The translations under genes were made by a program, and so were the position numbers. A stretch of 64,000 bases of DNA from Rathayibacter sp. VKM Ac-2879 (lineage in GTDB: Bacteria > Actinomycetota > Actinomycetes > Actinomycetales > Microbacteriaceae): assembly GCF_015351245.1 (NCBI RefSeq), contig NZ_JADKSO010000001.1:248001-312000 (forward strand), written 5' to 3'. The notes beneath the pieces were generated by a model. That model ran no database searches. It worked only from the letters and a program-made list of their open reading frames with translations, and was not told the origin of the DNA. Below are positions 19,401 through 57,168 of the stretch, one piece after another. Position 1 is the first letter of the stretch. Each line of letters opens with the position of its first letter.

Positions 19401-19468
19401 CGCCCACTGTCCAGAAGTCGTCGCATTCGGGCGCGAATGCGACGACTTCTGGGCCTTCGGTGTGGGCG
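19401..19468. terminator. Nested perfect inverted repeats after the GH35 gene
   Basis: Core arms of 19 bases, CCAGAAGTCGTCGCATTCG at 19411-19429 and its exact complement at 19434-19452, enclose a four-base loop. Outer arms CGCCCAC (19401-19407) and GTGGGCG (19462-19468) pair around it. It lies directly after the beta-galactosidase stop on the minus strand and probably ends that operon. The length and perfection exceed an ordinary terminator, and no T-tract follows. Confidence 0.65.
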
Positions 19469-21235
19469 TCAGATTTCGGTGTGACCCAGCTCGGGGCCGG
19501 CCAGGAGGCGGATCTCGGGCTCGGCGAACGCCTCCAGTTCGAGCACCACGACACGATTGCGGCCCGCGTGCGTCACGGGCGCCGGCACGATCAGCGTCCT
19601 CTGCGGCCCGCGTCGCCAGTAGCGCCCGAGGAGGAAGCCGTTGACCCAGACGAGGCCCTTGCCCCAGTGCAGGGTGTCGAGGAACAGATCGGCCGGTGCG
19701 TCGAGCTCCACGACTCCGGAGGCGAGGCCCGGCCCCGCCGCGAATCCGCTCGCGCTCGGCCCTGCCAGCTCGGGGAGGCACTCCACGGCGAGTGGCCGCG
19801 CCGTCCACCCCGTGAGCTCCGCGCCGTCGAGGTGGACGCCTCCGATGAGCCCCTTGTGCTCGCCGATGCGCGTGCCGTAGTTCACCCGGCCCTGGTTCTC
19901 GACCAGGATCGCCAGCTCGCCCCGGCCGCTCGGGAGGGTCAGCGCCCGCTCGTGATGATCGCGGGCGAGCACGCCAACGGGCGCCCCGTCGAGCAGCACC
20001 GTGGCGCGGTCGCGCACCTCCTCGCCGACGACGAGACGGGCCGGAGCGGCGCCTCCGTCGAGGGTGGTCGTGAAGAGCACGAAGCCGTCGTCGTGCCCGA
20101 GATCGTCGAAGCTCGCCATCGCGTCGAGACGCACGGCCTCGCCGAACGCGGAGTCGAGGCCCAGGAGCGCCGGGCCGGCGAGGAGCGGCGCGGCGAGGGC
20201 TGGCGCGGGCGCGCGCACGGCAGGTACTTCGGCGGGGACCGGTGCGTAGCGCGCGATCACCTCGCGGAACGCCCAGAACTTCGCCGTCGGGTCGCCGCTC
20301 TCGTCGATCGGCGCGTCGTAGTCGTAGCTCGTCGTGATGGCCGCGTAACGGCCCTTGTCGTTGGCGCCGCTGGTGAGGCCGAAGTTGGTGCCTCCGTGGA
20401 CCATGTAGATGTTGACCGAGCCGCCCACCGCGAGCACGGCGTCGAGCTCGCGAGCCGACGCCTCCGCATCGGTCGTGTGGTGCTGGGTGCCCCAATCGTC
20501 GAACCAGCCGCACCAGAACTCCATGCACATCAGCGGTCCCGTGGGCTGGAACTCGCGCAGCGTCGCGAGGCGCTCGGCGGCGCGCGAACCGAACGAGCCG
20601 GTCAGGTGCAGTCCAGGGAGGCTGCCGTCGGCGAGCATCTGCGGCGTCGGCTGGTCGATGGTCGTCAGTGGCACCGAGATGCCGCACTCGCGTGTCACGC
20701 GGACCAGCTCGGCCAGGTACTCCTTGTCGGACCCGTACGCGCCGTACTCGTTCTCGATCTGCACGAGAACCACCGGGCCGCCGGAGTCGATCTGCCGGGG
20801 GGCGACGACCGCGTACACGCGACGGAGGTAGTCGGTCACGGCCGCGAGGTAGTGCGACTCCGAGCGGCGCACTCCCACCTCGGGGTCGCGGAAGAGCCAG
20901 GCCGGCAGCGCGCCGTTGTCCCATTCCGCGCAGATGTAGGGGCCGGGCCGCACGATCGCGTGCATGCCCTCGGCGGCGATCAGGTCGAGGAAGCGCCCCA
21001 GGTCGAGTCCTGCGTCCTCGCGCCATTCACCCTGGCGCGGCTCGTGGGCGTTCCAGGCGACGTAGGTCTCGATGGTGTTCAAGCCCATCAGGCGCGCCTT
21101 GTGGATCCGGTCGGCCCACAGGTCGGGGTGGATCCTGAAGTAGTGCAGCGCTCCCGACAGGATGCGGTGCGGGCGGCCGTCGAGCTCGAAGTCGACGGCC
21201 CCGATGGCGAAGCGACTCTCGGGAACGGTGGTCAT
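19469..21235 (-). CDS. GH35 beta-galactosidase
   Basis: 588 residues without a signal peptide, hence cytoplasmic. The TIM barrel (about 15-330) has the GH35 hallmarks: SGALHYFRIHPDLWADRI, WNAHEPRQGEW, RPGPYICAEWDNGALPAWL, and IENEYGAYG with the acid/base Glu163; the nucleophile is Glu239 in MCMEFWCGWFDDWG, and NIYMVHGGTNFG follows. The C-terminal beta domains are typical of the family. It would release terminal beta-galactose from short oligosaccharides. Last gene of the importer operon, preceded by a hairpin (21274-21307). Confidence 0.94.
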   Translation of the reverse strand: MTTVPESRFAIGAVDFELDGRPHRILSGALHYFRIHPDLWADRIHKARLMGLNTIETYVAWNAHEPRQGEWREDAGLDLGRFLDLIAAEGMHAIVRPGPYICAEWDNGALPAWLFRDPEVGVRRSESHYLAAVTDYLRRVYAVVAPRQIDSGGPVVLVQIENEYGAYGSDKEYLAELVRVTRECGISVPLTTIDQPTPQMLADGSLPGLHLTGSFGSRAAERLATLREFQPTGPLMCMEFWCGWFDDWGTQHHTTDAEASARELDAVLAVGGSVNIYMVHGGTNFGLTSGANDKGRYAAITTSYDYDAPIDESGDPTAKFWAFREVIARYAPVPAEVPAVRAPAPALAAPLLAGPALLGLDSAFGEAVRLDAMASFDDLGHDDGFVLFTTTLDGGAAPARLVVGEEVRDRATVLLDGAPVGVLARDHHERALTLPSGRGELAILVENQGRVNYGTRIGEHKGLIGGVHLDGAELTGWTARPLAVECLPELAGPSASGFAAGPGLASGVVELDAPADLFLDTLHWGKGLVWVNGFLLGRYWRRGPQRTLIVPAPVTHAGRNRVVVLELEAFAEPEIRLLAGPELGHTEI

Positions 21236-21273
21236 CTGGATCCCCCTCAGGATCGGTGAGGTGCGGCGAACGA

Positions 21274-21307
21274 AGCGGGGCCGGCCGGAGATCCGGCCGA
21301 CCCCGCT
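21274..21307 (-). terminator. Hairpin between binding-protein and beta-galactosidase genes
   Basis: AGCGGGGCCGGCCGG (21274-21288) pairs with 21293-21307 with one mismatch around a four-base loop. It sits between the binding-protein stop (21323) and the GH35 start (21235), where it could lower downstream expression or protect the 3' end of the binding-protein message. Confidence 0.6.
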
Positions 21308-21322
21308 GTCAGGGAGTGAGTA

Positions 21323-22669
21323 CTACTCGGAGACCTTGAAGCCCTGCGAGTTGCCGTACTGCACCAGCTTGCTCTGCCAGTCGGCGAGACCCTTGTCGAG
21401 GTCCGTGCCGTTGGCGTAGGACTGGCCGACGGTGTCACCGAATACGCTGTTCGCGTACACCTGGAAGGGCAGGTACGACCAGCCGGTACGGACGTCCTTC
21501 GACGCCTGGGTGAGCACCTCGTTGATCTTCTGGCCACCGAAGTAGGCCGACTCCATGCCCGTGAAGGCGGGGTCGCTCAGCTCGGCGCTCGTCGACGGGA
21601 AGCCGCCGCTCTTGAGGAAGACGTCGATCGACGAGGAGTCGCTGTTCAGCCAGCGGAGGAACGCGGCGGCGAGCGCCGGGTTCTGGCTCTGCTTGGTGAC
21701 GGACTGGCCGCCTCCACCGTTCTCGGCGCTGACGGCGGTGCCGTCGTAGGTGGGGATGGGCGCGACGGCCCAGTCACCGGAGGCACCGGGGACGCTGGAC
21801 TCGAGCACGCCGGGCATCCAGGCGCCGGTCACGAGCGAGGCGATCGAGCCGTCGGCCAGACCCTTGTACCACTCGTCGCCCCAGGCGGGGGTGCTCGAGA
21901 GCAGCTTCTTCTCGATGAGCTGGTTCCAGACACCGGTCCACTTCTTGGAGCCGGCGTCGGCGAGGTTGACGGTGACGTTGGTGCCGTCGGTGGTGAACGG
22001 CTTGCCGCCCGCCTGCCAGATCATGCTGGTCGCGAAGCCCGCGTCGCCGGTGTCGGCGGTGATGTACTTCGACGGGTCGGCGGTGTGCAGCTTCTCGGCT
22101 GCGGCGACGTACTCGTCCCACGTCGTGGGGACCGAGATGCCGTACTGGTCGAAGACCTTCTTGTTGTAGAACAGCGCCATGGGGCCGGAGTCCTGCGGAA
22201 GGCCGACGAGCTTGCCACCGATGTTCACGCTGCCCCATGTGGAGGCGGAGTACTTGTCCTGCAGGTCGCCCATCCCGTACTGCGAGAGGTCGAGCAGCGA
22301 GTCCGACAGGGCGAACTGCGGCATGGCGTAGTACTCGATCTGCACGACGTCAGGGGCGCCGGAGCCGGCCTTGACCGCATTCTCGAGCTTCGTGTACTCG
22401 TCCTTGTTGGTGCCGGCGTTGACGAGGTCGACCTGGACCTTGGGGTAGGCCTTCTCGAATGCGGCGACCTGAGCCTCGGCGCTGGGGGTCCAGCTCCAGT
22501 AGGTGATCTTTCCGCCGGCCTGGAGGGCGGCGTCGAGGTCGGCGGAGGTGCCGCCGCTCGTGGCGCCGCCACCCGAGGTGGACGAGCAGGCCGCGAGGGA
22601 TCCTGCGGCCAGCGCCACGGCGGCGGCGACCGTCAGGGTCCGCCTGAGGGCGGAACGGGCGATCTTCAT
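21323..22669 (-). CDS. Sugar ABC importer substrate-binding lipoprotein
   Basis: 448 residues. Signal peptide with lipobox: TVAAAVALAAGSLAACSSTS, so Cys at about 28 is lipidated. The mature domain is a family 1 extracellular solute-binding protein (MalE-like): KITYWSWTPSAEAQVAAFEK and FEKAYPKVQVDLVNAGTN at the start, VQIEYYAMPQFALSDSLLDL, LFYNKKVFDQYGISVPTTWD and GAWMPGVLES later. It would deliver oligosaccharides to the two permeases just upstream. Being third, after both permeases, is an unusual order. No ATPase gene is in this operon, so it probably uses a shared MsiK-type ATPase encoded elsewhere (known for actinobacterial CUT1 importers). Confidence 0.93.
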   Translation of the reverse strand: MKIARSALRRTLTVAAAVALAAGSLAACSSTSGGGATSGGTSADLDAALQAGGKITYWSWTPSAEAQVAAFEKAYPKVQVDLVNAGTNKDEYTKLENAVKAGSGAPDVVQIEYYAMPQFALSDSLLDLSQYGMGDLQDKYSASTWGSVNIGGKLVGLPQDSGPMALFYNKKVFDQYGISVPTTWDEYVAAAEKLHTADPSKYITADTGDAGFATSMIWQAGGKPFTTDGTNVTVNLADAGSKKWTGVWNQLIEKKLLSSTPAWGDEWYKGLADGSIASLVTGAWMPGVLESSVPGASGDWAVAPIPTYDGTAVSAENGGGGQSVTKQSQNPALAAAFLRWLNSDSSSIDVFLKSGGFPSTSAELSDPAFTGMESAYFGGQKINEVLTQASKDVRTGWSYLPFQVYANSVFGDTVGQSYANGTDLDKGLADWQSKLVQYGNSQGFKVSE

Positions 22670-22761: not shown

Positions 22762-23676
22762 TCAGCCCTTGACGCTGCCGGCGCTCAGGCCGGACTGCCA
22801 GAAGCGCTGGAGCCCGAGGAACGCGACGACGATGGGGATGATCGTGAGCAGAGAGCCCGTGATCACGAGGTTGTAGATCGGCTGCGCGCTCACGCCGGTG
22901 GCCTGCGCGTTCCACTGGTTGAGCCCGACGGTGAGCGGGTACCACGAGGGGTCGCTCAGCATGATCAGCGGGAGGAAGTAGTTGTTCCAGGTGGCGACGA
23001 CCGAGAACAGCAGGACGGTCACGATCCCGGGGGCGAGGAGGCGGATCGAGATGGTGAAGAAGGTGCGGAACTCGCCCGCCCCGTCCATCCTCGCCGCTTC
23101 GAGCAGCTCGGTCGGAACCGACTCCACCGCGTAGACCCAGACCAGGTAGAGCCCGAACGGGCTGATGAGGGACGGGATGATGATCGCCCACGGCGTGTTG
23201 GTGAGGCCGAGCTGGCTGAACATGAGGAACGTCGGAACGGCGAGCGCCGTGCCGGGCACCGCGATCGCGCCGAGCACCACCGCGAACACGGCCTTGCGCC
23301 CGGTGAAGCGGAACTTCGCGAGACCATAGCCGGCGAGCGTGGCCAAGAGCGTCGCGCCTCCCGCCCCCACGACGACATAGAGGAGGGTGTTGCCGAGCCA
23401 GCGGAGGAAGATGCCGTCGCGGTAGGTGAGCGTGTCGGCGATGTTCTGGAAGAGCACGAAGTCGCCGTCGAACCAGAGGCCGAAGCTCGAGAGCAGCCCG
23501 GCCTGCGTCTTCGTCGCGTTGATGACGAGCCAGGCGAGGGGCACGAGGCTGTAAAGGATGAACACCGACATCAGCAGCGTGAACGCGACGGACTTCTTCG
23601 GGTTCACCGACGAGCCGCGGCGTGGGCGGGGCGTGCGCGGGGTGGGGGCGCGCCGAGCGGGGGTCGCGAGGGCCAT
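22762..23676 (-). CDS. Sugar ABC importer permease (MalG-like, CUT1)
   Basis: 304 residues with six membrane helices, starting VAFTLLMSVFILYSLVPLAW. The cytoplasmic EAA loop that docks the ATPase is VPTELLEAARMDGAGEFRTF. N-terminal residues are Pro/Arg-rich. The ATG at 23676 overlaps the stop of the partner permease by one base (TGATG), so the two subunits are coupled. It sits 92 bases before the binding-protein gene. The substrate is inferred from the GH35 and GH30 context to be a galacto-oligosaccharide. Confidence 0.93.
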   Translation of the reverse strand: MALATPARRAPTPRTPRPRRGSSVNPKKSVAFTLLMSVFILYSLVPLAWLVINATKTQAGLLSSFGLWFDGDFVLFQNIADTLTYRDGIFLRWLGNTLLYVVVGAGGATLLATLAGYGLAKFRFTGRKAVFAVVLGAIAVPGTALAVPTFLMFSQLGLTNTPWAIIIPSLISPFGLYLVWVYAVESVPTELLEAARMDGAGEFRTFFTISIRLLAPGIVTVLLFSVVATWNNYFLPLIMLSDPSWYPLTVGLNQWNAQATGVSAQPIYNLVITGSLLTIIPIVVAFLGLQRFWQSGLSAGSVKG

Positions 23677-24617
23677 CAGTTCTCCTTCCGCGCGCCACGG
23701 AGCTGCACGACGTAGGCGATCACGGCGGTGATCACTCCCATGACGATGGCGACCGTGGCCGACGCGTTGTACTGCTGACCGGCGAAGGACAGGTTGTAGG
23801 CGTACATGTTCGGCGTGAAGTAGGTGGTGATGATGTTCGGCGCGAGCGTACGGAGGATGTTGGGCTCGTTGAACAGCTGGAAGCTGCCGATGATCGAGAA
23901 GATCGTGGCGATCACGATGGCGCCGCGGAGGGCGGGGAGCTTGATCGAGGTGATGACCCGCATCTGGCCTGCTCCGTCGATCTCGGCGGCCTCGTAGAGC
24001 TCGCCAGGGACCGTCTTGAGAGCGGAGTAGAAGATCAGCATGTTGTAGCCGACGAACTCCCACGTGACGATGTTGCCGATGGAGGCGAGGATCCAGTCAC
24101 GTGAGAACGGCTGGACGGCATCGGAGCCGAGGAGATCGTTCAGGTTGGCGGCGAGACCGAAGTTGTTTCCGTAGATGAAGCCCCACATGAGCACGGCGAC
24201 GACGGCGGGGACGGCGTAGGGGAGGAACACGACGATGCGGAAGAACCCGGTTCCGTGGAGGCGTCCGCTGTCGATCGCGAGCGCCGCGACGAGCGCGAGC
24301 ACCAGCATCACCGGCACCTGCACGACCAGGAACAGCAGGACCCGGCCGAAGCCCTCCCAGAAGTTCGGGTCGGTGAAGAGGGCGAGGTAGTTCTCGAAGC
24401 CGACGAACGAGTTTCCGCCGATGAGCTGCTCGCGGAAGAGGCTGAGGTAGATCGAGTAGACGACGGGCGCGATGAAGACGAGGACGAAGACCACGAGGAA
24501 CGGAGCGACGAACGCCAGGCCCTTCCACTCGCTCTTCGCCCGAGACTTCGGGGTGGCGAGAGGAGCCGCTGGAGGCGAGACTTCGCTCAGCGGGACAGGG
24601 GGAGACGTCGTCGTCAT
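23676..24617 (-). CDS. Sugar ABC importer permease (MalF-like, CUT1)
   Basis: 313 residues. Six helices, the first WKGLAFVAPFLVVFVLVFIA followed by YSIYLSLFREQL. The EAA loop reads VPGELYEAAEIDGAGQMRVI. The start at 24617 is preferred over upstream in-frame codons because the latter cross the operator at 24648-24665. First gene of the operon and divergent from the LacI gene; the 156-bp gap contains the operator, so importer and regulator are probably controlled together. Confidence 0.93.
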   Translation of the reverse strand: MTTTSPPVPLSEVSPPAAPLATPKSRAKSEWKGLAFVAPFLVVFVLVFIAPVVYSIYLSLFREQLIGGNSFVGFENYLALFTDPNFWEGFGRVLLFLVVQVPVMLVLALVAALAIDSGRLHGTGFFRIVVFLPYAVPAVVAVLMWGFIYGNNFGLAANLNDLLGSDAVQPFSRDWILASIGNIVTWEFVGYNMLIFYSALKTVPGELYEAAEIDGAGQMRVITSIKLPALRGAIVIATIFSIIGSFQLFNEPNILRTLAPNIITTYFTPNMYAYNLSFAGQQYNASATVAIVMGVITAVIAYVVQLRGARKEN

Positions 24618-24647: not shown

Positions 24648-24665
24648 CATGTTCACGTCAACATG
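24648..24665. promoter_or_regulatory. LacI-type operator, importer/regulator intergenic region
   Basis: CATGTTCACGTCAACATG is an 18-bp inverted repeat with one mismatched pair, centred on ACGT. It is 31 bases before the permease start at 24617 and between divergent genes. On the minus strand it contains TTGACG, a -35-like hexamer, so repressor binding would block polymerase. The same 14-mer core TGTTCACGTCAACA recurs at 30661-30674. Confidence 0.75.
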
Positions 24666-24773: not shown

Positions 24774-25814
24774 ATGGGTATCGACACGAACCGTAGCTCG
24801 GGCACTGCACGGCCCCGACGCGGTGTGTCGATGGCCGACGTCGCCCGGCGCGCGAACGTCTCAGGGCAGACCGTCTCGCGGGTGTCCAACGGCAAGCAGA
24901 ACGTGGACACGGAGACCCGAGAGCGTGTGCTCGAGGCCATGAGAGTCCTGGGCTATCGGCCCAATAGCGCCGCGAGGGCTCTACGCACCGGCCGCTTCCA
25001 CAGCATCGGCGTGATCATGTTCACGCTCTCCTCCTTCGGCAACATGCGCACCCTCGACGCCATCGCCATCGCGGCGGCCGACGCGGGTTACTCGATCACC
25101 CTCATCCCCGTGTCCCACCCCACCCAGGGTGAGGTCTCGGTAGCGTTCCACCGCCTCAGCGAGGAGGCGGTGGACGGCGTGATCATCATCGTCGAGGCGC
25201 ACCTGCTCGACGAGGCCGACATGGTGCTTCCGCCCGAGCTGCCCGTGGTGGTGGTCGACTCCGCGGGGGGAGAGAAGTATCCGGTCGTCGACACGGACCA
25301 GGTCGCCGGAGCGCGCCTGGCGGTGGAGCACCTCCTCGATCTCGGGCACCGAACGGTGTGGCACATCGCGGGGCCTGAACGCTCGTACTCGGCGGAGCGC
25401 CGCCGAGACGCGTGGGAGACCACGTTGCGCGCGCGGAACGCGCCGATGCCGGAGGTGCTCGTGGGCGACTGGTCGAGCGACTCCGGCCACCGCCTGGGGC
25501 GCCAGCTGGCGGCCGACCCGGAGGTGACCGCCATCTTCGCGGCGAACGACCAGATGGCGCTCGGTGTCCTGCGCGCACTGCACGAGGCCGGTCGCTCCGT
25601 GCCGGGCGACGTCAGCGTGGTCGGCTTCGACGACATGCAGGAGTCGGCGAGCTTCTGGCCGCCGCTGACGACGGTCCGGCAGTTCTTCGGCGACACGGGC
25701 CGCGGCGCCGTCGACATCCTCCTGCGCGAGCTGGAGTCGGGCGAGCGCTCGGGCGTCACCCTCGTGCCGACGACGCTCGTGGTGCGCGAGAGCACGGGGC
25801 CGGCGCGGCGCTGA
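24774..25814 (+). CDS. LacI family transcriptional regulator of the galactan module
   Basis: 346 residues. Helix-turn-helix and hinge at residues 17-75: VSMADVARRANVSGQTVSRV, then YRPNSAARALRTGR. The recognition helix carries Gly-Gln at the positions that vary between LacI proteins (SGQTVSRV). The effector domain is a periplasmic-binding-protein fold: HSIGVIMFTLSSFG, DGVIIIVEAHLLD, FDDMQESASFWPPLTTVRQ near the end. It should bind the TGTTCACGT(C/G)AACA sites, repress the importer, the beta-galactosidase and the GH30 gene, and release on an oligosaccharide or sugar. Divergent from the importer. Confidence 0.93.
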   Translation: MGIDTNRSSGTARPRRGVSMADVARRANVSGQTVSRVSNGKQNVDTETRERVLEAMRVLGYRPNSAARALRTGRFHSIGVIMFTLSSFGNMRTLDAIAIAAADAGYSITLIPVSHPTQGEVSVAFHRLSEEAVDGVIIIVEAHLLDEADMVLPPELPVVVVDSAGGEKYPVVDTDQVAGARLAVEHLLDLGHRTVWHIAGPERSYSAERRRDAWETTLRARNAPMPEVLVGDWSSDSGHRLGRQLAADPEVTAIFAANDQMALGVLRALHEAGRSVPGDVSVVGFDDMQESASFWPPLTTVRQFFGDTGRGAVDILLRELESGERSGVTLVPTTLVVRESTGPARR

Positions 25815-26931: not shown

Positions 26932-29900
26932 TCAGCAGCTGCGGGCCGCGTACGACGCGGGGATCACCGAGCTGACGGTCTTGCCGTCAACGGTGCCCGT
27001 CGCCGTCACGCTCACCGTGCCGGCCGCCACGGAGGCGGCGCGGGTGGTGAACGCGGCGGTCGCGTTCGATCCCGGGGCGATGCCGGTGAACTGCTTCGAG
27101 CCGTAGCTCGAGGCGATCGTCATCCCCACCGGCACGCTCGCCTTGTTGAGCGCGGTCACCGTGAGGGTGACCTTGCCGGCGATGCAGCGGGTCGAGGCGG
27201 TGACCGTCACGGCGAGGGCGGCGGGCTTCGTGAGCGTCACCGTGACCTTCGTCGTGGTGGTCTTCGAGCCGTCGGCCGAGGTGACGGCGATGGTCCCCAC
27301 TCCGTCGGTGCCGGGTTGCGTGACGCGCACGGAGGCCGCCGAGTCGGTGGCGATCGCGGTGATCACCGGCATGCTGTCGCTTTCGACGGTGACCGCATAG
27401 TCGGTGCGCGTCGGCGAGAAGCCGCTCACTCCGACGCCGTTCACCCTCAGGGCGCCGAGGGTGCTGACCGCGGCGGGCGAGGCGACCGACTCGAACAGCT
27501 TCACCTCCGACACGATGAGGTGCGTGTTCGCGTAGGCGTTCATCACGACGCGGAACGCCTTCGCCGTGACCGGCGCGAACGAGGCGACGAGCGTAGGCGC
27601 CGAGCCGTCCGCCGGGGAGGCGAGAGGCTTCGCCGTCTCGTAGCCCGGGACCGAGGTCCAGGTGCCATCCGTGCTCTGGTACTGCAACTGGTAGCTCTGC
27701 GCCCAGCTGGTGCCTCCGTCGCGCAGGAACTGCACCGACACCTTCTCGACCTGATGGGTCGAGGGGAAGGCGTAGCTCAGAGTGCTCTGCGCAGCCTTGG
27801 CCCCGCTGGTCCAGTTCGACCAGGCCTTGTCGCCGTCGATGCCGTTGCGCGTGCCGTCCGGGCTGTAGCCCGGCTCCGAGAAGGTGGCCGAGGCCACGAT
27901 GCCCGCATCGGGGTTGAAGTTGCGCAGGGTGCCCGCGGTGACGAGTACGGTGAGCGTGGCGGGCAGCGTGCCGGAGTCGGCGGTCGCCGTGCCCGAGATC
28001 GTCACCGAGCCGGGCGCCGAGAGCGAGGCGGTGGTGAGCGGTGTCCAGTCCCAGGTGACCGGCACCGCGAAGGTGCTGGTCGAGGCACCGACCCGGGCGG
28101 GGACGGTCGTCGGGGCCGCGGCCTTGACTCCCGCGACGCTCGCGCCGGTGGCAACCGTCAGCGACACCGGGTCGGTTGCGGTCAGTCCGCCGACGTCGAC
28201 GAGCGCCGTGACCGGGACGCTCTGGCCGAACAGGTCGGTCGCGGTCCCCTTCACCTCGACGCGGCCGGCGGTGCCGTAGACCGAGTCCGCCGGGCGCTGC
28301 CAGGTCACGGCGATTGCCGCTCCCGTGCCCCACGCGTACTGCGGGGTGACGGTGGCGGGCAGGGTCGGAGCGACACCGACGGCGGTGCGGACGGCGACCG
28401 TCTGCCCGGCGTTCGGAGCCAGGTCGCGGAGCGTCCACGACTGGTTCGTGCCTCCGTTGGAGCCATACACGCCGACCGTCGTGTTCTCGGCACTCGAGGC
28501 CGAGTTGACGTCGAGCGACTGCGCGATCGACTCGTTGACCAGCGTGTAGTTCACGCCATCGGTCGTGTTCACGAACCAGCGGGTAGCGGGCATGGTCAGG
28601 GCGGAGGCGACCGACACGGAACGCAGCTCGGTCCCGGCGGTCGTCGCGCCGAGGATGCGGCCGTCGCCGTTCTCGAGGACCACCCGGCGGGTGCCCTCAC
28701 GCTGGCCGACCGGCACCTCGTGCACGGTCCAGCTCTGCTTCGCGGCAGTGGCGGAGTCGGTGGCGAGGGTGGTGATCGTCGTCGCGGCGCCTGAAGGGTT
28801 GCCGGTCAGGGCCTTGCCGCTCTGGGTGCCGACGAACTGGTAGCGGTGGCCGTCACGCAGCGCGGGGGCGGAGTCGGCGACTCCCGAGACGCCGTCGATC
28901 GAGAAGGACGTGACCGACTTGGCGGGGACCGTGACCGTTGCGGTGCGCGACTGGCGGTCGATGCTCACCGCGGCCTGCTTCACGAGCGCGTTGCCGGTGG
29001 GGGCGTCGGCCGAGGATGCCTGGGTGGTCACGTAGGGGGTGACCTGCGCGCCGGAGGCGAGGGTGCCGAAGCGTGACAGGTCGAGCGTGATCGTCTGCGC
29101 GGTCGTCGCGTTGTTGGTGTGCACGACCGTCGCGCCGGTGCCGTCGCCGCGGACGGCCGCGGTGCTGGCGGTGTCGTTGGAGGGCATCAGGTGGTCGCCC
29201 TCGTGAATGAACTTGGTGAAGTTGCGGATCGTGTTGAACTTCGAGTTCGTCTGCACGCCGCAGACCGGGGCCTTGGTGGAGTCGCCACCCGCGTCGGCGA
29301 CGCGACGGGCCGACTTCCAGACCTCGGCGCCGTTCTCCTGGTAGGGCTTGCAATCGAGGTCGATGTAGACGGAGCCCCAGTTGAGGTTCTCGCCCTTCGG
29401 GCTCATGTTGTAGAGGTCCTCGACGGGCTGCCAGAGCACCCACGCCTTCGGATCGAGCTCGCGGAGGTCGTCCGAGATGCGGCCGGCGATGCCGAGGCCG
29501 TTCTCGATGTTGGTCGGGTCGAAGCCCTGCACCCAGTTGCCCTCGATCTCGCTCATCCACAGGTCCTTGTCGGCCTGCTGGGCGAGGTCGCGGACCGCGA
29601 GGCGGTCGGCAGTGCCGTACGTGTGCACGTTGAGGCGGTCGACCTGCGCGCGGACGTCGGCGGGGTAGGCGGCCCAGTTCTGCTTGAAGATGCTCGGGTT
29701 GGTCTCGTCCATCGCGGCGATGCCGGCGTTGGTGCTCGAGGCTGCGAGAGCGGCGGCGACGTCGGGGATGAGGCTCGCCTGGCGGCTCGGGCCGACGTGC
29801 ATGCCCTCCTGGCGTCCGCCGGTCGGGACGCCGTTGGTGAGCTGGGTGCCCCAGTAGGGCGTGTTGGGCTCGTTGAACGGGTCGAGGGAGTCGAACGAGA

Positions 29901-47500: not shown

Positions 47501-48879
47501 GCGAGGATGGGCTTGTTGTTGTTGAGCTTCGACCAGTGCAGGCCGTCGTCGCTGGCGCCGAAGTAGATCTTCTCGTAGTCGGTGGTGCCGAAGTGGGTCC
47601 AGAGGTAGCTGGCGTCGTAGTTGGTGTCGAGGCCGACCGGAGCCGCGGTCACGGTGAGGGGGATCTGCCGGGTCGCGGTGGTGCCGGGCACGCTCGCGGT
47701 GACCGTGACGGTCGAGGTGCTGGCGGGACGCGTGACGACTCCGGTCGTGCTGACCACGGCGGTGTTCGACGAGGACCACGAGACGTCGTAGGCGCCTCCG
47801 GCCCGCGTCGGCAGGGTGACGTTGCCGCGGATGTCGCCGGAGTTCGGGATCGAGATCGCGTCGAGCGCCTTCTGCGCGTCGGCGTTCGTGTCTTGAGCGG
47901 GGACCTTCGCGGTGAAGGTGCGCGTTTGGGTCGCGGATCCGCGGGACGCGGTCGCGGTGAGCGTCACGGTCGAGGTGCCGGACGCCGGACGCGTGACGGC
48001 TCCGCTGTTCGAGATCACCGCGGTGTTGCTCGAGGCCCAGCTGATCGTGGAGCCGTTGGGCCCGGACGTCGGCAGGGTGAGGTTGGCGGTGACGGCGTTG
48101 AGGTCGCCGAGGTCGAGTGCAGCGAGGTCGCGAGTGGCGCGAGTGGCGTCGGTCGCCTGGATCGAGGCGACGTCGGACGCGGAGAGCGCCGTGTTGTAGA
48201 TACGGAAGTCGCGCACCGAGCCGGTGAGGTACTTGTCGGCGTCGTAGACCGAACGGCCGATGTAGTCGGCGGTGGTCGAGCCGTTGCCGAGGGAGCCGGG
48301 GGTGATGGTCACGCCGGTCTGCTGGGCGACCTGGGTGCCGTCGAGGTAGAGCTTCGCGGTGTCGCTCGCGTCGTCGAGCGTGTAGGTGAGGGTCTTCCAG
48401 ACGCCGCGGTCGAGGTTGGCGTTGGAGTTGACCGTCTGCTCGGTCTGCCAGTTGCCGCTCGCGATCGAGGTCTTGTAGCTGTTGCCCGTCGTGTACAGGT
48501 AGCCGTTGCCCGCGCCGTTCGTGGTGTTTCCGAGGCCCCAGATGAAGTAGGGGGTGCCCTGGCTCGGGCTGACGAGGACCTCGGTGCTGACGGTGACCGA
48601 GGTGAGGCCCGCGAGCACGTTGTCGGGCAGCTTCACGTAGTCGTTGGCCCCGTCGAGCTTGACCCCGGCGCTTCCCTGCGGGGCGGCGCCGTTGACGAGG
48701 GTTCCGTTGCGGCCTTTGCCGGAGCTGTCGACCGCGACGGTGCCGCTGGTCTCGTCGAGCGCGTAGCGGAGGACGAGAGAGGAGTCGCTGGGAGCGGCGA
48801 TGGCCGTCTGGGCCGTGAGGAGGGGCACGGCGAGCGCGATGGCGCTCACGATGACCAGGGGTCTGAGAAGGGGCTTCAT
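44563..48879 (-). CDS. Secreted protein with two GH43 and two LamG domains (arabinofuranosidase-like)
   Basis: 1438 residues from the ATG at 48879 (AGGAGC upstream). Order: signal peptide (1-30), LamG/concanavalin-like domain (about 30-235), two Ig-like repeats (240-405), first GH43 propeller (about 415-725; VRDPHLVRSP for the base Asp, DHIEGLTVY for the acid Glu), second LamG (740-940), Ig-like unit (945-1035), second GH43 propeller (about 1040-1330; YYADPNIAVF, AIDPDAFTD, FREGSFVNYR), and a C-terminal domain (1346-1438) shared with the GH30 enzyme. Both propellers keep their acids. The second resembles alpha-L-arabinofuranosidases. The operator 48939-48952 precedes it. Confidence 0.9.
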   Translation of the reverse strand: MKPLLRPLVIVSAIALAVPLLTAQTAIAAPSDSSLVLRYALDETSGTVAVDSSGKGRNGTLVNGAAPQGSAGVKLDGANDYVKLPDNVLAGLTSVTVSTEVLVSPSQGTPYFIWGLGNTTNGAGNGYLYTTGNSYKTSIASGNWQTEQTVNSNANLDRGVWKTLTYTLDDASDTAKLYLDGTQVAQQTGVTITPGSLGNGSTTADYIGRSVYDADKYLTGSVRDFRIYNTALSASDVASIQATDATRATRDLAALDLGDLNAVTANLTLPTSGPNGSTISWASSNTAVISNSGAVTRPASGTSTVTLTATASRGSATQTRTFTAKVPAQDTNADAQKALDAISIPNSGDIRGNVTLPTRAGGAYDVSWSSSNTAVVSTTGVVTRPASTSTVTVTASVPGTTATRQIPLTVTAAPVGLDTNYDASYLWTHFGTTDYEKIYFGASDDGLHWSKLNNNKPILANLAGTLGVRDPHLVRSPTGDEYWILGTDLHAEGTAPGGTWDQTNASQKLVIWRSTDLVHWSDQSLVFAGFADAGNVWAPEAMWDATTGQYYVYWASRDKTKTGSASAQRVYVTTTRDFMTFTTPTIWLDENPPQGGASGGSIIDTTIAKEGNTFYRFSTSDWRTVVDTATSLAGPWTRVIARGEDTAHGLSDHIEGLTVYQLPDGRWVVMGDNGGYSAYVTNSLASLQFTALQTGTTGANTYSFSAPFRHGSVLRLSSAEEARINAAYSATAGPAPKTANAAGEILRYTFDQVSGTTVTDASGNGQNGTLVSGATAQNGAVTFDGTDDYIKLPDNLLAGITDITVQTEVWIDPNQRTPYFIYGLGNTSNGVGNGYLFTTGDGYRTSITAGDYNSEQTVSQGTAVPRGRWAQLTYTLAGSTATIFLDGVKVGSGTVTVEPKDIGGGVTTANYIGRSNYDGDNRFRGQIREFAIYNRALSSSEVLNSSGNTTALADVTLSGDVLKTAPIIDAANRVVTFPVKRGTSLTALTPTYLTASGVTASPASGTVRNLSTPQTVVLTPAGGGATTTWTFKAIEVKSPVLPGYYADPNIAVFGDTYYIYATTDGTPGWGGNTFYVWSSKNLVDWTRSDKPFLTLDGANGNVPWAVGNAWAPTIIQKNGKYYFYFSGHNASLNRKTIGVAVADSPMGPFTAQPTAMITNGESVNSGQAIDPDAFTDPATGKSYLFWGNGSPVYGELSDDMLTIKPGTIKPISGLTDFREGSFVNYRQGLYHLTYSIDDTGSENYRVGYATATSVDGPWTYRGVILEKDPSLGILATGHNSIINVPGTDDWYIAYHRFAIPGGDGTHRETTIDKLTFDPTTGLMQKVTPTLQSVAPQTISVAPAIAVKATATTRCITGKVVLTMTATNPNAFPVKMAIGSSYGSTTVAEVGAGKTVSYAFTTRATSVPAGSASATATAFVSGKPASASATAPYAALSCG

Positions 48880-48938: not shown

Positions 48939-48952
48939 TGTTCACGGTAACA
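48939..48952. promoter_or_regulatory. LacI-type operator before the GH43 gene
   Basis: TGTTCACGGTAACA is 60 bases before the GH43 start. It is the exact reverse complement of 54098-54111 (TGTTACCGTGAACA). Just beside it, CACGGTG (48951-48957) and CACCGTG (48965-48971) form a second palindrome around TTTACGT, so two sites may overlap. Confidence 0.78.
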
Positions 48953-49141: not shown

Positions 49142-50182
49142 TCAGGTCTTGCTGCGCGCCATCACCGCGCGCTGGAGGAGCACGAAGATCAGGAGGATGC
49201 CTCCGGTGATGATCGTCGTCGCCTCGGGCGGGATGCCGCCGTCTCGGGTGATCAGGACGTTCATGAGGCCGAGCACCAGCGCGCCCACCACCGAGCCGAG
49301 CACGAAGCCCACGCCTCCGGTGAGGAGCGTGCCGCCGATGACGGTCGCTGCGATGGCGTCGAGCTCCCAACCGGTACCCGTGATGTTCTGGGCGCTGCCG
49401 AGACGTGCCGTGTAGACGACTCCGGCGAGGCCCGCCAGGGTGCCGCTGATCACGTAGATGAGCAGCTTGGTGCGGACGACCGGCAGACCCATGAGGGCGG
49501 CCGACTGCTCGGAGCCGCCCATCGCGTACACCGTGCGGCCGAGGCGCGTGCGGTGCAGCACGAAGAACGCGACGGCGACGACGACGACGGCGATGATCAC
49601 GCCGGGGCTGATCACGAAGTCGTTGACCTTCGGTCCGTCGATGAGCTTGATCGGGGCGGCCAGGCTCAGCACGGCCGAGTCGCCGGGGAGGCGCTCGGGC
49701 ACGGTGCTCAGCATCGACGCGAGTCCGCGGGCCAGGAACATCATCGCGAGGGTCGCGATGAAGGGCTGGACGTTGAAGTACTGGATGAGGACGCCCGACA
49801 CGAGGCCGAAGGCCGAGCCGATCACCACCATCAGCACCATGACGAACCACGGGTTCCAGCCGGCGTTGATGAGGAGCACCCCGCTGACGCTGCTGAAGGC
49901 GATCACCGCGCCGACCGAGAGGTCGATGCCTCCCGTGAGGATCACGAAGGTGAGGCCCACGGCGAGGATGATCAGGTGCGAGTTGTTGACCAGCAGGTTC
50001 GAGATCGTGTTCGCCTGCAGGATGCGGCCGTAGGCGGCCTCACCGTAGAACACCATCGCGAGGAAGATGATCAGGGCGGCCACGGTCGGCAGCTTGTCGA
50101 GGTGCTGGCTCAGCCAGCCGCGTGCTCCAGAAGAGCGGTTCGAGCTCGCCGGAGGGGCGGAGCGGGTCATCACGGCGCTCAT
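49142..50182 (-). CDS. Sugar ABC importer permease (YjfF-like)
   Basis: 346 residues with about ten helices of the CUT2 (ribose/AraH-type) permease fold: NNSHLIILAVGLTFVILTGG then IDLSVGAVIAFSSVSGVLLI, the family signature; QPFIATLAMMFLARGLASML and DAIAATVIGGTLLTGGVGF follow. The second permease of a two-permease system, as in the E. coli ytfQ-ytfR-ytfT-yjfF galactofuranose importer. It overlaps the first permease by four bases (ATGA). The importer here is likely for arabinose or a related furanose, because the GH43 gene shares its operator. Confidence 0.92.
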   Translation of the reverse strand: MSAVMTRSAPPASSNRSSGARGWLSQHLDKLPTVAALIIFLAMVFYGEAAYGRILQANTISNLLVNNSHLIILAVGLTFVILTGGIDLSVGAVIAFSSVSGVLLINAGWNPWFVMVLMVVIGSAFGLVSGVLIQYFNVQPFIATLAMMFLARGLASMLSTVPERLPGDSAVLSLAAPIKLIDGPKVNDFVISPGVIIAVVVVAVAFFVLHRTRLGRTVYAMGGSEQSAALMGLPVVRTKLLIYVISGTLAGLAGVVYTARLGSAQNITGTGWELDAIAATVIGGTLLTGGVGFVLGSVVGALVLGLMNVLITRDGGIPPEATTIITGGILLIFVLLQRAVMARSKT

Positions 50183-51251
50183 GCGGGAATCGCCTCTTTC
50201 TGCGGGGCGCGGCGACGCGCCTCACGACGGGACTTGAAAGCGGAACGGACCCGCTCCGACTGCAGCAGGCAGAGCGCGACGATGACGATCGCCTTGAAGG
50301 CGGGGGTCGCCGACGACGAGACGCCCAGGAACACGACGGTCTTGTCGAGCGTCGCGATCAGGATCGCGCCGACGGCAGCACCGGTGATGTTGAACTTTCC
50401 ACCGGCGAGCGAGGTGCCTCCGATGACGACCGCGAGGATCGCGTCGAGCTCGAGCTGGTAGCCGGTGCGCGAGACGTCGACGGTCATGACGCTCGCGGTG
50501 GCGAAGACGCCCGCGACACCGGCGAGGAGGCCGCTGGCGATGTAGGCGGTCATCAGCAGGCCGCGGCGGTTGATTCCCGCGAGGCGGGCCGCCTTCGGGT
50601 CCATTCCGATGGCTTCGATCATGAGGCCCAGCGCGCTGCGGCGGACCAGGATCCCGACGAGGACGACGATCGCGATCGCGATGAGGAACACGACCGGGAG
50701 TCCGAAGACGTACCCGTTGGCGATCCAGCGGAACGGCTCGTTCGTCGCGGCGGTGTTCTGGCCGCCCGTGATGACCTTCGCCAGGCCGCGGCCGGCGAGC
50801 ATCACGACGAGCGTGCTGATGAAGGGTTGGAGGCCCACCACCGACACGAGGATGCCGTTGATGGCACCGAGCACCGCCGAGATGAGCATCGCGATGCCGA
50901 ACGCGCCGGCAGCGGCTCCGAGGGAGTCGGGGGCGCCGGCGGAGTTCAGGAACTCCATCGACACGGCGCCGGCGACCACCATGATCGAGCCGACCGAGAG
51001 GTCGATGCCTCCCGTCGCCACGACGAGGCACATGCCGACGGCGATCATCAGGATCGGCGCGGCGGCGCGGGCGATGTCGATGAGGTTGCCGACAAGGTAG
51101 CCCGTGTTGGGGCTCACCGTGACGGACAAGTATCCCGGGTCCTTTGCCACGTTCACGAGGAGGAGCAGCACGATGGCCACGACTCCCCAGAAGTACTGGC
51201 GTCGGATCAGCCCGGCCAGGGCGGAGCCCCGAGAGGGCTTCGTGTCGCTGC

Positions 51252-51255
<4 letters not shown>
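50179..51255 (-). CDS. Sugar ABC importer permease (YtfT-like)
   Basis: 358 residues of the CUT2 fold: APILMIAVGMCLVVATGG with IDLSVGSIMVVAGAVSMEFL, QPFISTLVVMLAGRGLAKVI and ELDAILAVVIGGTSLAGGKF. The long insertion with NEPFRWIANGYVFGLPVVF is typical. Overlap of four bases with the ATPase gene upstream and with the YjfF-like gene downstream, so the three are translationally coupled. Forms a heterodimer with the other permease in the membrane. Confidence 0.92.
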
Positions 51256-52826
<1,571 letters not shown>

Positions 52827-52948: not shown

Positions 52949-53953
52949 TCAGTACTTACGGTCGGGCAGGGCGGTCTTCGCAGCGTCGGGCGAGTCGAAG
53001 GTCTTGCTCGGGACGACGATCGACGAGTCGACCTTGTCACCGGCGAGGGTCTTCTTCACGGCGTCGAGCGCGGTCTCGCCGAACAGCGGGTTGTACTCAG
53101 CGACGAAGCTGAGCTGACCGTCCGCGAGCGCCTGGAGGGCGTTCTTGGTGCCGTCGATCGTGGCGATCTTGACGTCCTTGCCCGGGGTGAGGCCAGCCTC
53201 CTGGACGGCCTGGATGACGCCGAGGCCCATCTCGTCGTTCTGGGCGAAGACCATCTGGACGTCGTTGTTGTTCGACTTCAGAACGGTCTCGAAGACGCTC
53301 TTGGCTTCCTCGGTCGACCAGTTCGCGGTCTGCGCACCGATCTTGACGAAGGCGCTGTCCTTGCCGATGACGTCGTCCCAGCCCTCGTTGCGCTCGTTGA
53401 CGACCGAGACACCGGCGGGGCCCTCAAGCGTGAAGTACTTCGCGCCGTTCGGGAACTCCTTCTTGGCCCAGTCGGCGACCGAGGTGCTGACGGCGATGTT
53501 GTCAGGCGCGATGCGGGTGACGTAGAGGTCGGTGTTGTTCGGCTCGATGCCGCGGTCGATCAGGATGACCGGGATGTCGGCCTCCTTGGCGCGCTGGAGC
53601 GAGTCCTCCCAGCCGGAGCCTTCGGTCGCCGACAGCAGGATGACGTCGACGCCCTCGTCCACGAACGAGGTGAAGGAGTCGATCTGCGACTTCTGGTCAC
53701 CGTTGGTGGCGGGAGCGTACTTGAGGTCGAAGCCAGCGTCCTTGGTGAACGTGTCCTCGATGTTGGTCTCGTTCGCCTGGCGCCATGCGCCCTCGGGGCC
53801 GACGGCCACGAAGCCGACGGTGATGAGCTTGCCCGGGTCCGTGGTCGAGCCGGAGCCCGAGTCGGAGTCGGCCGAGCAGCCGGCGAGGCCGAATGCGAGC
53901 GCGCCGATGGTGGCCAGGCTCAGGAACTGGCCGATACGCCTCGTCTTGGACAT
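52949..53953 (-). CDS. Sugar-binding lipoprotein (YtfQ-like)
   Basis: 334 residues; AAGGAGGAG before the ATG at 53953 is an excellent site. Lipobox ALAFGLAGC. The mature domain is a periplasmic-binding-protein type 1 fold: TVGFVAVGPEGAWRQANETN, FVDEGVDVILLSATEGSGWE with AKEADIPVILIDRGI, and IATIDGTKNALQALADGQLS. The SATEGSGWEDSLQRAKEA segment is very close to YtfQ and its actinobacterial and bifidobacterial relatives. It would bind a furanose or pentose outside the cell. First gene of the operon; an operator lies 145 bases upstream. Confidence 0.93.
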   Translation of the reverse strand: MSKTRRIGQFLSLATIGALAFGLAGCSADSDSGSGSTTDPGKLITVGFVAVGPEGAWRQANETNIEDTFTKDAGFDLKYAPATNGDQKSQIDSFTSFVDEGVDVILLSATEGSGWEDSLQRAKEADIPVILIDRGIEPNNTDLYVTRIAPDNIAVSTSVADWAKKEFPNGAKYFTLEGPAGVSVVNERNEGWDDVIGKDSAFVKIGAQTANWSTEEAKSVFETVLKSNNNDVQMVFAQNDEMGLGVIQAVQEAGLTPGKDVKIATIDGTKNALQALADGQLSFVAEYNPLFGETALDAVKKTLAGDKVDSSIVVPSKTFDSPDAAKTALPDRKY

Positions 53954-54097: not shown

Positions 54098-54111
54098 TGT
54101 TACCGTGAACA
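54098..54111. promoter_or_regulatory. LacI-type operator before the YtfQ-like gene
   Basis: TGTTACCGTGAACA, flanked as GGAA...TTCC to extend the dyad. The 14-mer is identical, in reverse complement, to 48939-48952 in front of the GH43 gene. It is 145 bases before the binding-protein start at 53953. Confidence 0.78.
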
Positions 54112-54223: not shown

Positions 54224-55789
54224 TCACCACGATTCGTCGGAGTCGGTGGTGTCGGCGGCGATCATCTCGACGATCGTGTCGACGGTGAGGCCGGGCCCGT
54301 TGCTGACCTCGCCGATCTTCTCGCGGTCCTTGAACACCACGATGCGATCGCTGAGGCGCACCACCTCCTCTAGCTCCGACGAGATGTAGACGACCGAGAC
54401 GCCCTCGCGGGCGAGCTGGGCGATGTGCGCCTGGATCTCGACCTTCGACGCCACATCGATGCCGCGCGCGGGCTCGTCCAGCACGAGGAGGCGCGGTCGG
54501 GTCGCGAGCCAGCGAGCCAGCACGACCTTCTGCTGGTTGCCGCCCGAGAGGTACTTGACCGGGATATCGGGATCGGCCGGAGAGATGTTGAGCGCCTCGA
54601 CGTATGTGGCAACCAGAGAGTCGGTCTCGGCGGCCGACAGCGGATGCGCCCAACCGCGCAACGCCTGCAGGCCCAGCACGAGGTTCTCGCGGAGAGACAG
54701 GTCGCCGATGATGCCGTCCTCGCGGCGGTTCTCGCTCGAGTGCGCGATGCGGTGCCGCAGACCCGAGACGGGATCCGTGATGTGCGCCGGCTCACCGTCG
54801 ATCAGCACCTCACCCGAGTCGGGCCTCTCGACGCCGCTGAGCAGCGACGCGAGCTCGGTCCGGCCAGAGCCGCGGAGGCCCGCGAAGCCGACGATCTCGC
54901 CGCGGTGCAGCTCCAGATCGGTGGGGCCGACCGCTCCGCGCCTGCCGATGCCCACCGCCCGGTAGACCGCCGGGCCGACGGGCTGCTGACGGTGCTCGCG
55001 GCGCTCGGAGCCGATCTGCCGCAACGCGTCGATGTCCTTGCCGATCATCTTCGCGATCAGCTCGGCCCGATCCATGGCCCGGGCCGGGTACTCACCCTCG
55101 GTGCAGCCGTCGCGCAGCACCGTCACCCGATCGCTGAGAGTGAGGACCTGCTCGAGGAAGTGCGAGACGAAGAGGATCGCGACGCCCTGGTCGCGGAGCC
55201 TCCGCAGCACCGTGAAGAGGCGGGCGACGTCGCCGAGGTCGAGGCTCGAGGTGGGCTCGTCGAGGACGAGGACCCGCGGTCGCCCGACCATCGCGCGGCT
55301 GATCGCGACGAGCTGCCGGATCGCGGGGGAGAGCGAGCGCAGCGGCAGGCGAGGATCGAGATCCTCCAGCCCCAGCTCGGCCAGCATCTCGGCGGCCCGC
55401 TTGTGCGTGCGCGACCACGAGATGCCCAGGTGCCCGCGGATCTCGTGCCCGATCATCACGTTCTCCCCGATGCTCAGGTTGTCCGTGAGCCGCTCGTCCT
55501 GGAACACCGCCGTGATGCCGGCTGCCTTCGCGTCCGCCGGACCCGAGAAGCGGCGAGCGACTCCGTCCAGGAGGATCTCGCCCGCATCGGGCTGGTGGAT
55601 GCCGGTGAGGGTCTTGATGAGCGTCGACTTGCCGGCGCCGTTCTCGCCCATCAGCCCGTGGATCTCGCCGGGGATCAGACGCAGCCGGGCGTCACGGAGC
55701 GCCGGGCCGGAGGAGAAGGACACGCAGATGCCCGTCATCTCGACGACGGGAGCCTCAAGAGGCGGAGTCGTCCGCGAGGGGATCGCCAC
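54224..55789 (-). CDS. Second sugar ABC ATPase, paralog of the YtfR-like protein
   Basis: 521 residues with two ATPase halves, same layout as 51252-52826: Walker A GENGAGKST, SLSPAIRQLVAISRAM, VLVLDEPTSSLD; then GLRGSGRTELASLLSG, LSGGNQQKVVLARWLA and LLVLDEPARGIDVASK. Long stretches (for example GKSTLIKTLTGI and AILFVSHFLEQV) are near-identical to the other copy. It has no permease or binding-protein genes of its own and lies before the YtfQ-like gene on the same strand. It may energise the same importer or a distant one; intact by motif. Confidence 0.92.
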   Translation of the reverse strand: MAIPSRTTPPLEAPVVEMTGICVSFSSGPALRDARLRLIPGEIHGLMGENGAGKSTLIKTLTGIHQPDAGEILLDGVARRFSGPADAKAAGITAVFQDERLTDNLSIGENVMIGHEIRGHLGISWSRTHKRAAEMLAELGLEDLDPRLPLRSLSPAIRQLVAISRAMVGRPRVLVLDEPTSSLDLGDVARLFTVLRRLRDQGVAILFVSHFLEQVLTLSDRVTVLRDGCTEGEYPARAMDRAELIAKMIGKDIDALRQIGSERREHRQQPVGPAVYRAVGIGRRGAVGPTDLELHRGEIVGFAGLRGSGRTELASLLSGVERPDSGEVLIDGEPAHITDPVSGLRHRIAHSSENRREDGIIGDLSLRENLVLGLQALRGWAHPLSAAETDSLVATYVEALNISPADPDIPVKYLSGGNQQKVVLARWLATRPRLLVLDEPARGIDVASKVEIQAHIAQLAREGVSVVYISSELEEVVRLSDRIVVFKDREKIGEVSNGPGLTVDTIVEMIAADTTDSDESW

Positions 55790-55891
55790 GTGCCGTCCTC
55801 GGTTCGTGAGCGGCGTGCCGTCGGGGACCGGCGCGCCTGGGGCTGCGGGAGATGATACGCGAGCGGCGGCAGGCGGATCATTCCAGGTCGG

Positions 55892-56893
55892 TCACGCTCG
55901 TGGCGGCGCCGTGGAGTCGCGGATCACGAGCTCGGTCGCGATCCGGGTGCGCTGAGGGATCTCCTGCCCGCGGATGCGGGCGTGGATGACCTCGGCGACG
56001 GTCGTGCCGAGCTTGTCGAAGTCTTGCCGCACCGTCGTGAGGGGCGGAAGGAAGTGCCGCGCGGTCGGAAGGTCGTCGAAGCCGATGATGCTGACGTCCT
56101 GGGGCACGCGGATGCCCTTCTCGAGGAGTCCGTGGATCACTCCGAGCGCCATCTCGTCGTTGGCCACGACCATTGCGGTGAAGTCGGGGACCGACCGCAG
56201 GCCCGCCGCGAAGTCGTAGCCGGAGTCGGGCGTCCAGTCGCCGATGACGATCGGGCGCTCGTGCATGCCCCAGGACTTCGCCCTGCTGTGGAACGCGCGT
56301 TCCCTGGCCCGGGCGTCGAGCCAGTCGAGCGGGCCGGCCAGGTGCAGGACGTCCCGGTGGCCGAGGCCGGCGAGGTGGTCGACGGCCTGGGTCATCCCGG
56401 CCTGCTGGTCGACTGAGACAGTGAGGAAGTTGGGGTCTCTGTCCGACTTGACGACGAGCGTGGGCACGCCGATCTCGACTGTCCGCAGGGTGGCGACGGA
56501 GGAGGAGCGGGGCGCGATCACGCAGAGAGCGTCGATCCCGAGTCCCGTGAGGTGCTCGATCGCGTCGACCGGGCTCATGTCGAGGTCGGGGCGGAGGGCG
56601 ACCGAGGTGATCGAGTAGCCCTTCTCGCGTGCGGCGCGCTCGATGGCGCGCAAAGTGCTGGACGGGCCGAACTCGGCTCCGCTCTCGATCATCACGCCGA
56701 TGCGGTCGGTGCGCTGGGTGACGAGGGAGCGGGCGGCGATGTTGGGTCGATAGTTGAGTTCGTCGACCGCCTCGAGGACCCTCTTGCGGGTCGACTCCTT
56801 GATGTTCGGATGCCCGCTCAGCACCCGCGAGACCGTCATGTGCGAGACGCCCGCCACCGCCGCGACATGGCGGAGGTTGGGTCTATCGACCAT
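55892..56893 (-). CDS. LacI family transcriptional regulator of the arabinan module
   Basis: 333 residues from the ATG at 56893, with GGAGGAGG before it. The helix-turn-helix is LRHVAAVAGVSHMTVSRVLS, with NYRPNIAARSLVTQR as hinge. The recognition helix carries His-Met (SHMTVSRV) where the other LacI protein has Gly-Gln, in line with the different centres of the two operator types. The effector domain ends in FDDLPTARHFLPPLTTVRQD. It probably controls the GH43 gene and the importer through TGTTACCGTGAACA. It is upstream of the second ATPase gene on the same strand, with a 102-bp gap. Confidence 0.92.
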   Translation of the reverse strand: MVDRPNLRHVAAVAGVSHMTVSRVLSGHPNIKESTRKRVLEAVDELNYRPNIAARSLVTQRTDRIGVMIESGAEFGPSSTLRAIERAAREKGYSITSVALRPDLDMSPVDAIEHLTGLGIDALCVIAPRSSSVATLRTVEIGVPTLVVKSDRDPNFLTVSVDQQAGMTQAVDHLAGLGHRDVLHLAGPLDWLDARARERAFHSRAKSWGMHERPIVIGDWTPDSGYDFAAGLRSVPDFTAMVVANDEMALGVIHGLLEKGIRVPQDVSIIGFDDLPTARHFLPPLTTVRQDFDKLGTTVAEVIHARIRGQEIPQRTRIATELVIRDSTAPPRA

Positions 56894-57168
56894 CGACGAC
56901 CTCCTCCGCTCCCCGGGCGGACCACCCGCGCACGCGCCCTCCCGGCGTTGGCGACGCGAAGAAGGCTCGGCGGCCGGGAATCCGTCCAGCATAGTCAGCG
57001 GAGCCGTTCTGGCACGCGTGGGGGGCGGACGATCTGCGCTCGGACGACCGGACACGCCGCTCCCGCTACCGGAGCGCAGGGAGGGGAGGCGCGAGCCCGG
57101 CGAGGACGCCTCTCTCCTGCACGGGATTGGCCGCCCTGCACTCCGATACGGGTACTGTCGTGAGCCTC

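Follow-up and report, generated by a model that had tools for sequence, protein, structure and literature searches.

Two proposed neighbouring LacI regulons in Rathayibacter sp. VKM Ac-2879, a putative galactan branch and a putative L-arabinofuranose branch

The sugar genes analyzed here lie in a 64,000-nucleotide stretch (the window) of Rathayibacter sp. VKM Ac-2879 (contig NZ_JADKSO010000001.1, positions 248,001 to 312,000), in two LacI-associated branches that both fall inside 19469-56893 and are separated by 14 kb. Their closest described relatives include Bal6GBP, a binding protein of Bifidobacterium animalis subsp. lactis that binds beta-1,6-galactobiose with a dissociation constant of 92 nM and whose system has a galactosidase of glycoside hydrolase (GH) family GH42 (PMC8106489). 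In the GH30_5 enzyme Sa16Gal30A of Streptomyces avermitilis, Gln229 recognizes the axial O4 of galactose, Tyr294 and Trp350 stand at subsites -1/-2, and Trp341 forms a secondary sugar site reportedly kept in several characterized GH30_5 members (PMC13431644). The domains of Bifidobacterium longum BlArafE (BLLJ_1850), which has a C-terminal transmembrane region as its anchor, strip alpha-1,3- and then alpha-1,4-arabinofuranose from the side chains of gum arabic, on which BT_3675 acts as an alpha-1,3-arabinofuranosidase (PMC8939339). Mycobacterial GafA, represented by the Mycobacterium smegmatis structure 6hbd, binds L-arabinofuranose and D-galactofuranose (PMC10191376).

We propose that the two branches are neighbouring but separate sugar regulons, a galactan branch under LacI1 and an L-arabinofuranose branch under LacI2, and from the sequence comparisons we give this reading a probability of about 0.75. 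An earlier note on this DNA had named a GH30-like enzyme, a CUT1 importer, a GH35 enzyme, a double GH43 enzyme, a CUT2 furanose-type importer and two LacI genes, and had joined them into one system for type II arabinogalactan. Its gene calls are right, and the whole set was found where it had been placed; its joint arabinogalactan system finds only partial support. The parts are ordinary and known and the arrangement is mildly new, and the open-access literature searched yielded no description of such a gene set for arabinogalactan use in Rathayibacter or Microbacteriaceae.

The two LacI genes had been credited with distinct operators, and two exact operator types were indeed recovered, TGTTSACGTSAACA three times and TGTTACCGTGAACA twice. 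The LacI1-type operator lies between the CUT1 genes and lacI1 (24650-24663) and as a pair at the GH30 gene (proximal, 30625-30638; distal, 36 bp from it, 30661-30674), and the LacI2-type operator lies at the genes for the double GH43 enzyme (48939-48952) and the CUT2 binding protein (54098-54111). With two mismatches allowed, TGTTSACGTSAACA matched the window five times, at its three exact sites and at the two sites of the second operator; shuffled sequence averaged 0.23 matches, and 0 of 100 shuffles reached five. With three mismatches allowed, TGTTACCGTGAACA gave nine matches, counting both strands of palindromic sites, against a shuffled mean of 1.13, and no shuffle reached nine. Pattern scans of the window showed no further operator of either kind between the GH30 pair and the double GH43 gene. 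Both regulators, LacI1 (24774-25814, plus strand; PF00356 and PF13377) and LacI2 (55892-56893, minus strand; under the equivalog cut-offs of LacI-family models), have an N-terminal LacI helix-turn-helix, a sugar-binding domain and a nearby palindromic operator with a central CG. The recognition-helix pair is GQ in LacI1 and GQ, AQ or SQ in the LacI1 relatives read, and HM in LacI2 and in the six LacI2 relatives read. Gene position and this residue pair suggest that LacI1 binds TGTTSACGTSAACA and LacI2 binds TGTTACCGTGAACA; cross-binding is possible because the two operators differ by two bases.

Branch 1 (window genes given with coordinates from here on are on the minus strand) begins with a GH35 beta-galactosidase, predicted to be cytoplasmic since no signal peptide was seen by eye (19469-21235; PF01301, E 7e-108), in place of the GH42 enzyme of the B. 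animalis system. Its nearest solved relative is 4mad (E 1.5e-138), which we take to be a beta-1,3-selective enzyme, and its score far under the NCBIfam cut-offs leaves its linkage preference unfixed. The CUT1 solute-binding protein follows (21323-22669; SBP_bac_1), with two CUT1 permeases (22762-23676 and 23676-24617; both PF00528, BPD_transp_1). The binding protein appears to be of the beta-1,6-galactobiose-binding type, as it is identical to Bal6GBP at 195 of 407 aligned residues (48%) and matches 6h0h/6q5g at E ~1e-111, compared with 1.8e-52 for the next solved CUT1 binding protein. It keeps the N-terminal Trp pair (WAW/WSW), which probably contains the Trp63 of Bal6GBP named in PMC8106489. 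A DUF808 gene sits between lacI1 and the GH30 gene; we nevertheless place the GH30 gene in branch 1, because two LacI1-type operators precede it.

The GH30 gene (26932-30588) encodes a predicted secreted, GH30_5-like endo-beta-1,6-galactanase of 1218 aa with ricin-type, Big_4, F5/8 and C-terminal Ig-like modules, the signal peptide being judged by eye, as was that of the double GH43 enzyme. Pfam gave no GH30 match at 0.001, and the family call therefore rests on the match to the solved endo-beta-1,6-galactanase 24td (E 9e-32). The protein is identical to Sa16Gal30A at 113 of 317 aligned residues, and its catalytic region matched four Rathayibacter loci at 83-87% identity. We mapped by alignment 16 residues of Sa16Gal30A named in PMC13431644, and seven are identical (W123, N216, E217, Q229, Y294, E320 and W350), including the acid/base and nucleophile Glu pair (E217, E320), the preceding Asn and most residues of subsites -1 and -2. 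D354 is replaced by Glu, W222 by Tyr and W165 by Phe, and K114, H170, Q183, W185, N186 and W341 differ as well. By this alignment the catalytic and galactose-recognizing core is retained, unlike the secondary sites. We call the enzyme GH30_5-like rather than a GH30_5 member because Glu stands at the Trp341 position; besides this replacement, the modules listed above also set it apart from Sa16Gal30A.

Conservation of the LacI1-type operator was followed in 15 genomes of the genus, where 36 exact sites were found: 18 at LacI1/CUT1, 16 at GH30, one at a GH43_24 exo-beta-1,3-galactanase-like gene and one in a divergent promoter between peptidase-like and double-GH43 genes. The CUT1-lacI1 promoter has exact sites in 14 of the 15 genomes, and a site pair, exact or with one or two mismatches, precedes GH30 in all 13 genomes that have the gene (exact in nine). 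A GH43_24-type relative with LacI1-like sites occurs in 10 of the 15, resembling the gum arabic arabinogalactan-protein (AGP) system of B. longum, which has the exo-beta-1,3-galactanase Bl1,3Gal; the Rathayibacter set differs from that system by adding the GH30 enzyme, a Gaf-type importer and two LacI operators. Branch 1 could also serve beta-galactosides in general, beta-1,4-galactan or lactose-like sugars for example, with GH30 incidental, and the linkage preference left unfixed by the GH35 score would fit such a role. The GH30 site pairs and the Bal6GBP-type binding protein argue against it, as does the lack of GH53 among the 22 window proteins profiled against Pfam or NCBIfam (the remaining window proteins lay outside the scan), and we consider it very improbable. 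The same 22 proteins included no obvious beta-1,3-galactanase, glucuronidase or rhamnosidase. The importer relative, the GH30 active site, the shared operator and the GH43_24-type relative with its sites strongly support the reading of branch 1 as a putative side-chain regulon for type II arabinogalactan (beta-galactan), and for this branch the earlier note's joint substrate holds well.

Branch 2 was supported as part of such a system only in part, by its BlArafE-like architecture. The double GH43 gene (44563-48879; 1438 aa if translation starts at the likely ATG, 1460 aa if at the first GTG) encodes a predicted secreted arabinofuranosidase arranged as LamG, GH43_22-like, LamG and GH43_34-like stretches followed by a C-terminal Ig-like module, and three acidic-residue motifs were located in each GH43 domain. 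BlArafE is likewise a secreted LamG multi-domain enzyme with GH43_22 before GH43_34, a likeness read from domain order rather than from a subfamily tree. Unlike BlArafE, the Rathayibacter enzyme showed no C-terminal transmembrane region; its Ig-like module comes last, and the penultimate residue is a Cys. GH43 domain 1 matches the BAD1527 model at 127.6 bits, well under the cut-off of 500, and domain 2 is identical to 3qz4 (titled BT_3675) at 144 of 286 residues.

The CUT2 importer is encoded by one cluster, with a binding protein, a fused ATPase and two permeases, the same four gene types as GafABCD and YtfQRT-YjfF. They are a YjfF-like permease (49142-50182; NF008630, E 7.7e-85), a YtfT-like permease (50179-51255; NF041862, E 7.2e-72), a first YtfR-like ATPase (51252-52826; NF041861, E 1.9e-184) and a GafA/YtfQ-like solute-binding protein (52949-53953) that matches 6hbd, 6hyh and 6hb0 at E ~1e-62 and is identical to 6hbd at 118 of 298 residues (40%). 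Because the NCBIfam equivalog cut-offs were missed (203.8 bits against 510; 613.7 against 850 for the first ATPase, 242.4 against 535 for the YtfT-like and 285 against 363 for the YjfF-like permease), we call the importer Gaf-like and not a YtfQRT-YjfF equivalog. It also differs from the described importers by a second YtfR-like ATPase copy, which adjoins lacI2 (54224-55789; NF041861, E 5.4e-159, 529.7 bits, cut-off 850), so that two ATPase genes accompany one permease pair; both window copies keep the Walker motifs by eye. The second copy in relatives is ~58-60% identical to the first, lies ~1 to 20 kb off and adjoins lacI2 where read.

Exact LacI2-type sites numbered 47 in 13 of the 15 genomes, and a reversed control gave 0. 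The 39 that we classified precede genes for the double GH43 enzyme (11), the CUT2 binding protein (9), a ricin-lectin GH43 (8), GH127 (4) and a LamG-GH43 (4, one a weak match of 33% over 199 residues), and the remaining three have no labelled gene; at several of the sites the promoter is divergent and serves another labelled gene too, such as lacI2. The other eight were without a locus and stayed unclassified, three of them at double-GH43 or CUT2 binding-protein genes. The nearest structure to the ricin-lectin GH43 is the exo-1,5-arabinofuranosidase 3akf, and we rejected the protein as a candidate exo-beta-1,3-galactanase, its nearest structures being arabinofuranosidases. In one relative (G004) the genes for the second ATPase and the binding protein have a PL11 rhamnogalacturonan lyase gene between them, and like proteins occur in three others (G003, G010 and G011). 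Because GH127 and further GH43 genes of relatives also follow this LacI2-type operator, branch 2 is better read as a putative L-arabinofuranose regulon wider than arabinogalactan. Sites in G001 (L040) and G005 (L112:7625) have no labelled sugar gene after them.

The earlier note's single system, in which both LacI branches serve type II arabinogalactan, has points in its favour beyond the action of BlArafE, with its same architecture, on gum arabic AGP (PMC8939339). The same 13 of the 15 genomes have GH30, the double GH43 enzyme, the first CUT2 ATPase (at least 79% identity) and the CUT1 binding protein, although the ATPase is fragmented in G001 and G015 and the binding protein is partial in G001, and key genes of both branches were missed in the same two, G006 and G007. 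In G001 the divergent promoter of the closest double-GH43 orthologue contains an exact LacI1-type site; the site nearer this orthologue, TGTTAACGTGAACA, is a hybrid one mismatch from either operator. The exact site is closer to the divergent gene for a ricin-lectin peptidase-like protein, however (33 bp from its start), and we rejected a clean regulon swap of the G001 double GH43. Also opposed to a single system are the ricin-lectin GH43, GH127 and LamG-GH43 genes at the 39 LacI2-type sites and the PL11 lyase in the cluster. Comparison of gene order, which the earlier note had proposed, did not reveal the compact 38-kb stretch in relatives; the branches are 51-107 kb apart in the eight genomes with both on one contig and on separate contigs of draft assemblies in five, and we rejected one conserved 38-kb cluster. 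The co-occurrence supports cooperation of the branches; that they lie apart and have different operators speaks for two regulons. On balance we regard a single joint system as possible but doubtful.

Two side observations concern these genomes. G007 (L107) holds a reduced branch 1 in which LacI1, one CUT1 permease, GH35 and the operator are kept and the binding protein is truncated; GH30 and the other CUT1 permease were not found there. The divergent G001 gene (L066:8926-10551) encodes a secreted protein with ricin-type lectin domains and, by eye, a HELGH motif, and Pfam returned no peptidase family for it.

We searched more widely in the family Microbacteriaceae, where GH30 was found in 27 of 299 genomes at E up to 1e-40. 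Loci of 15-20 kb around GH30 were fetched for 20 of these, two stretches being shortened by contig ends; the other seven genomes comprise four Rathayibacter from the genus set and three others. LacI1, both CUT1 permeases and the binding protein lie near GH30 in nine of the 20 loci, eight of which also have GH35, and a GH43_24-like gene occurs in four (two among those nine). LacI1 is present alone in one locus, none of the branch-1 partners in eight, and LacI1-type sites with 0-1 mismatch in eight.

Several results weigh against our reading of the two regulons. Neither a CUT1 nor a GH43_24-like gene is present in nine of the 20 family loci, and a search at E up to 1e-20 recovered no double GH43 or CUT2 gene from any of the 20. 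As related sequences, the 10 GH43_24-like promoters do not count as independent trials, and the GH30 enzyme carries Glu at the positions of Trp341, the GH30_5 secondary site, and Asp354. The LacI2 targets in relatives suit not just arabinogalactan but equally arabinan and other polymers, and GH43_34 also includes beta-D-galactofuranosidases (PMC8939339). Since GafA proteins can in turn bind D-galactofuranose, as reported for M. smegmatis GafA and Escherichia coli YtfQ (PMC10191376), homology leaves the branch-2 sugar unfixed, and the branch might target galactofuranose polymers instead of plant arabinofuranosides. We find this very unlikely, given the closeness of GH43 domain 2 to BT_3675, an arabinofuranosidase, and the GH127 and exo-1,5-arabinofuranosidase-like GH43 partners in relatives.

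Under the two-regulon reading, LacI2 would control L-arabinofuranose harvesting: the secreted GH43_22/GH43_34 enzyme would strip alpha-linked arabinofuranose from arabinogalactan, perhaps also from other polymers, and arabinose would enter in its furanose form through the Gaf-type importer. Debranching by the LacI2 branch should expose galactan for the LacI1 branch, whose backbone step in relatives might fall to the secreted GH43_24-type exo-beta-1,3-galactanase preceded by LacI1-like operators. It is speculative, and in our view rather unlikely, that LacI1 senses galacto-oligosaccharides and LacI2 L-arabinofuranose with separate switching, that the shared C-terminal module holds the enzymes at the surface so that the furanose is caught before mutarotation, and that in one relative the ricin-lectin peptidase-like protein attacks the AGP core. 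Rathayibacter is a plant-associated genus; its LacI1 set would cleave galactose side chains from plant arabinogalactan and take them up, and its LacI2 set may harvest arabinose from arabinogalactan and probably from other plant polymers. For arabinogalactan use in Rathayibacter and its relatives among the Microbacteriaceae, the window provides a compact gene set and operators open to testing, and it cautions against single-substrate readings of gene clusters, as adjoining glycan genes can sit in different regulons.

The 14 kb between the branches holds mostly unrelated genes, which by Pfam include luciferase-like, AXE1, sugar MFS and WxLIP genes; a CDF-like gene and an MFS gene were named by eye. 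The GH30 and double GH43 proteins end in a module of ~95 residues with two bracketing Cys (26935-27219 and 44566-44871, respectively), which also ends many other secreted Rathayibacter proteins. No convincing Pfam or NCBIfam family was found for it among 37 members, the best being DUF4232 (9.6e-5, in 4 of 37), and its predicted structure is an Ig-like sandwich with a predicted local distance difference test score (pLDDT) of 97. All but one of the 61 non-identical matches listed, which include those of the window and overlap in part, lie 0-3 residues from the stop codon. In G013 (L143:2344-6618), a single open frame fuses GH30-like and GH43_24-like domains with the C-terminal module.

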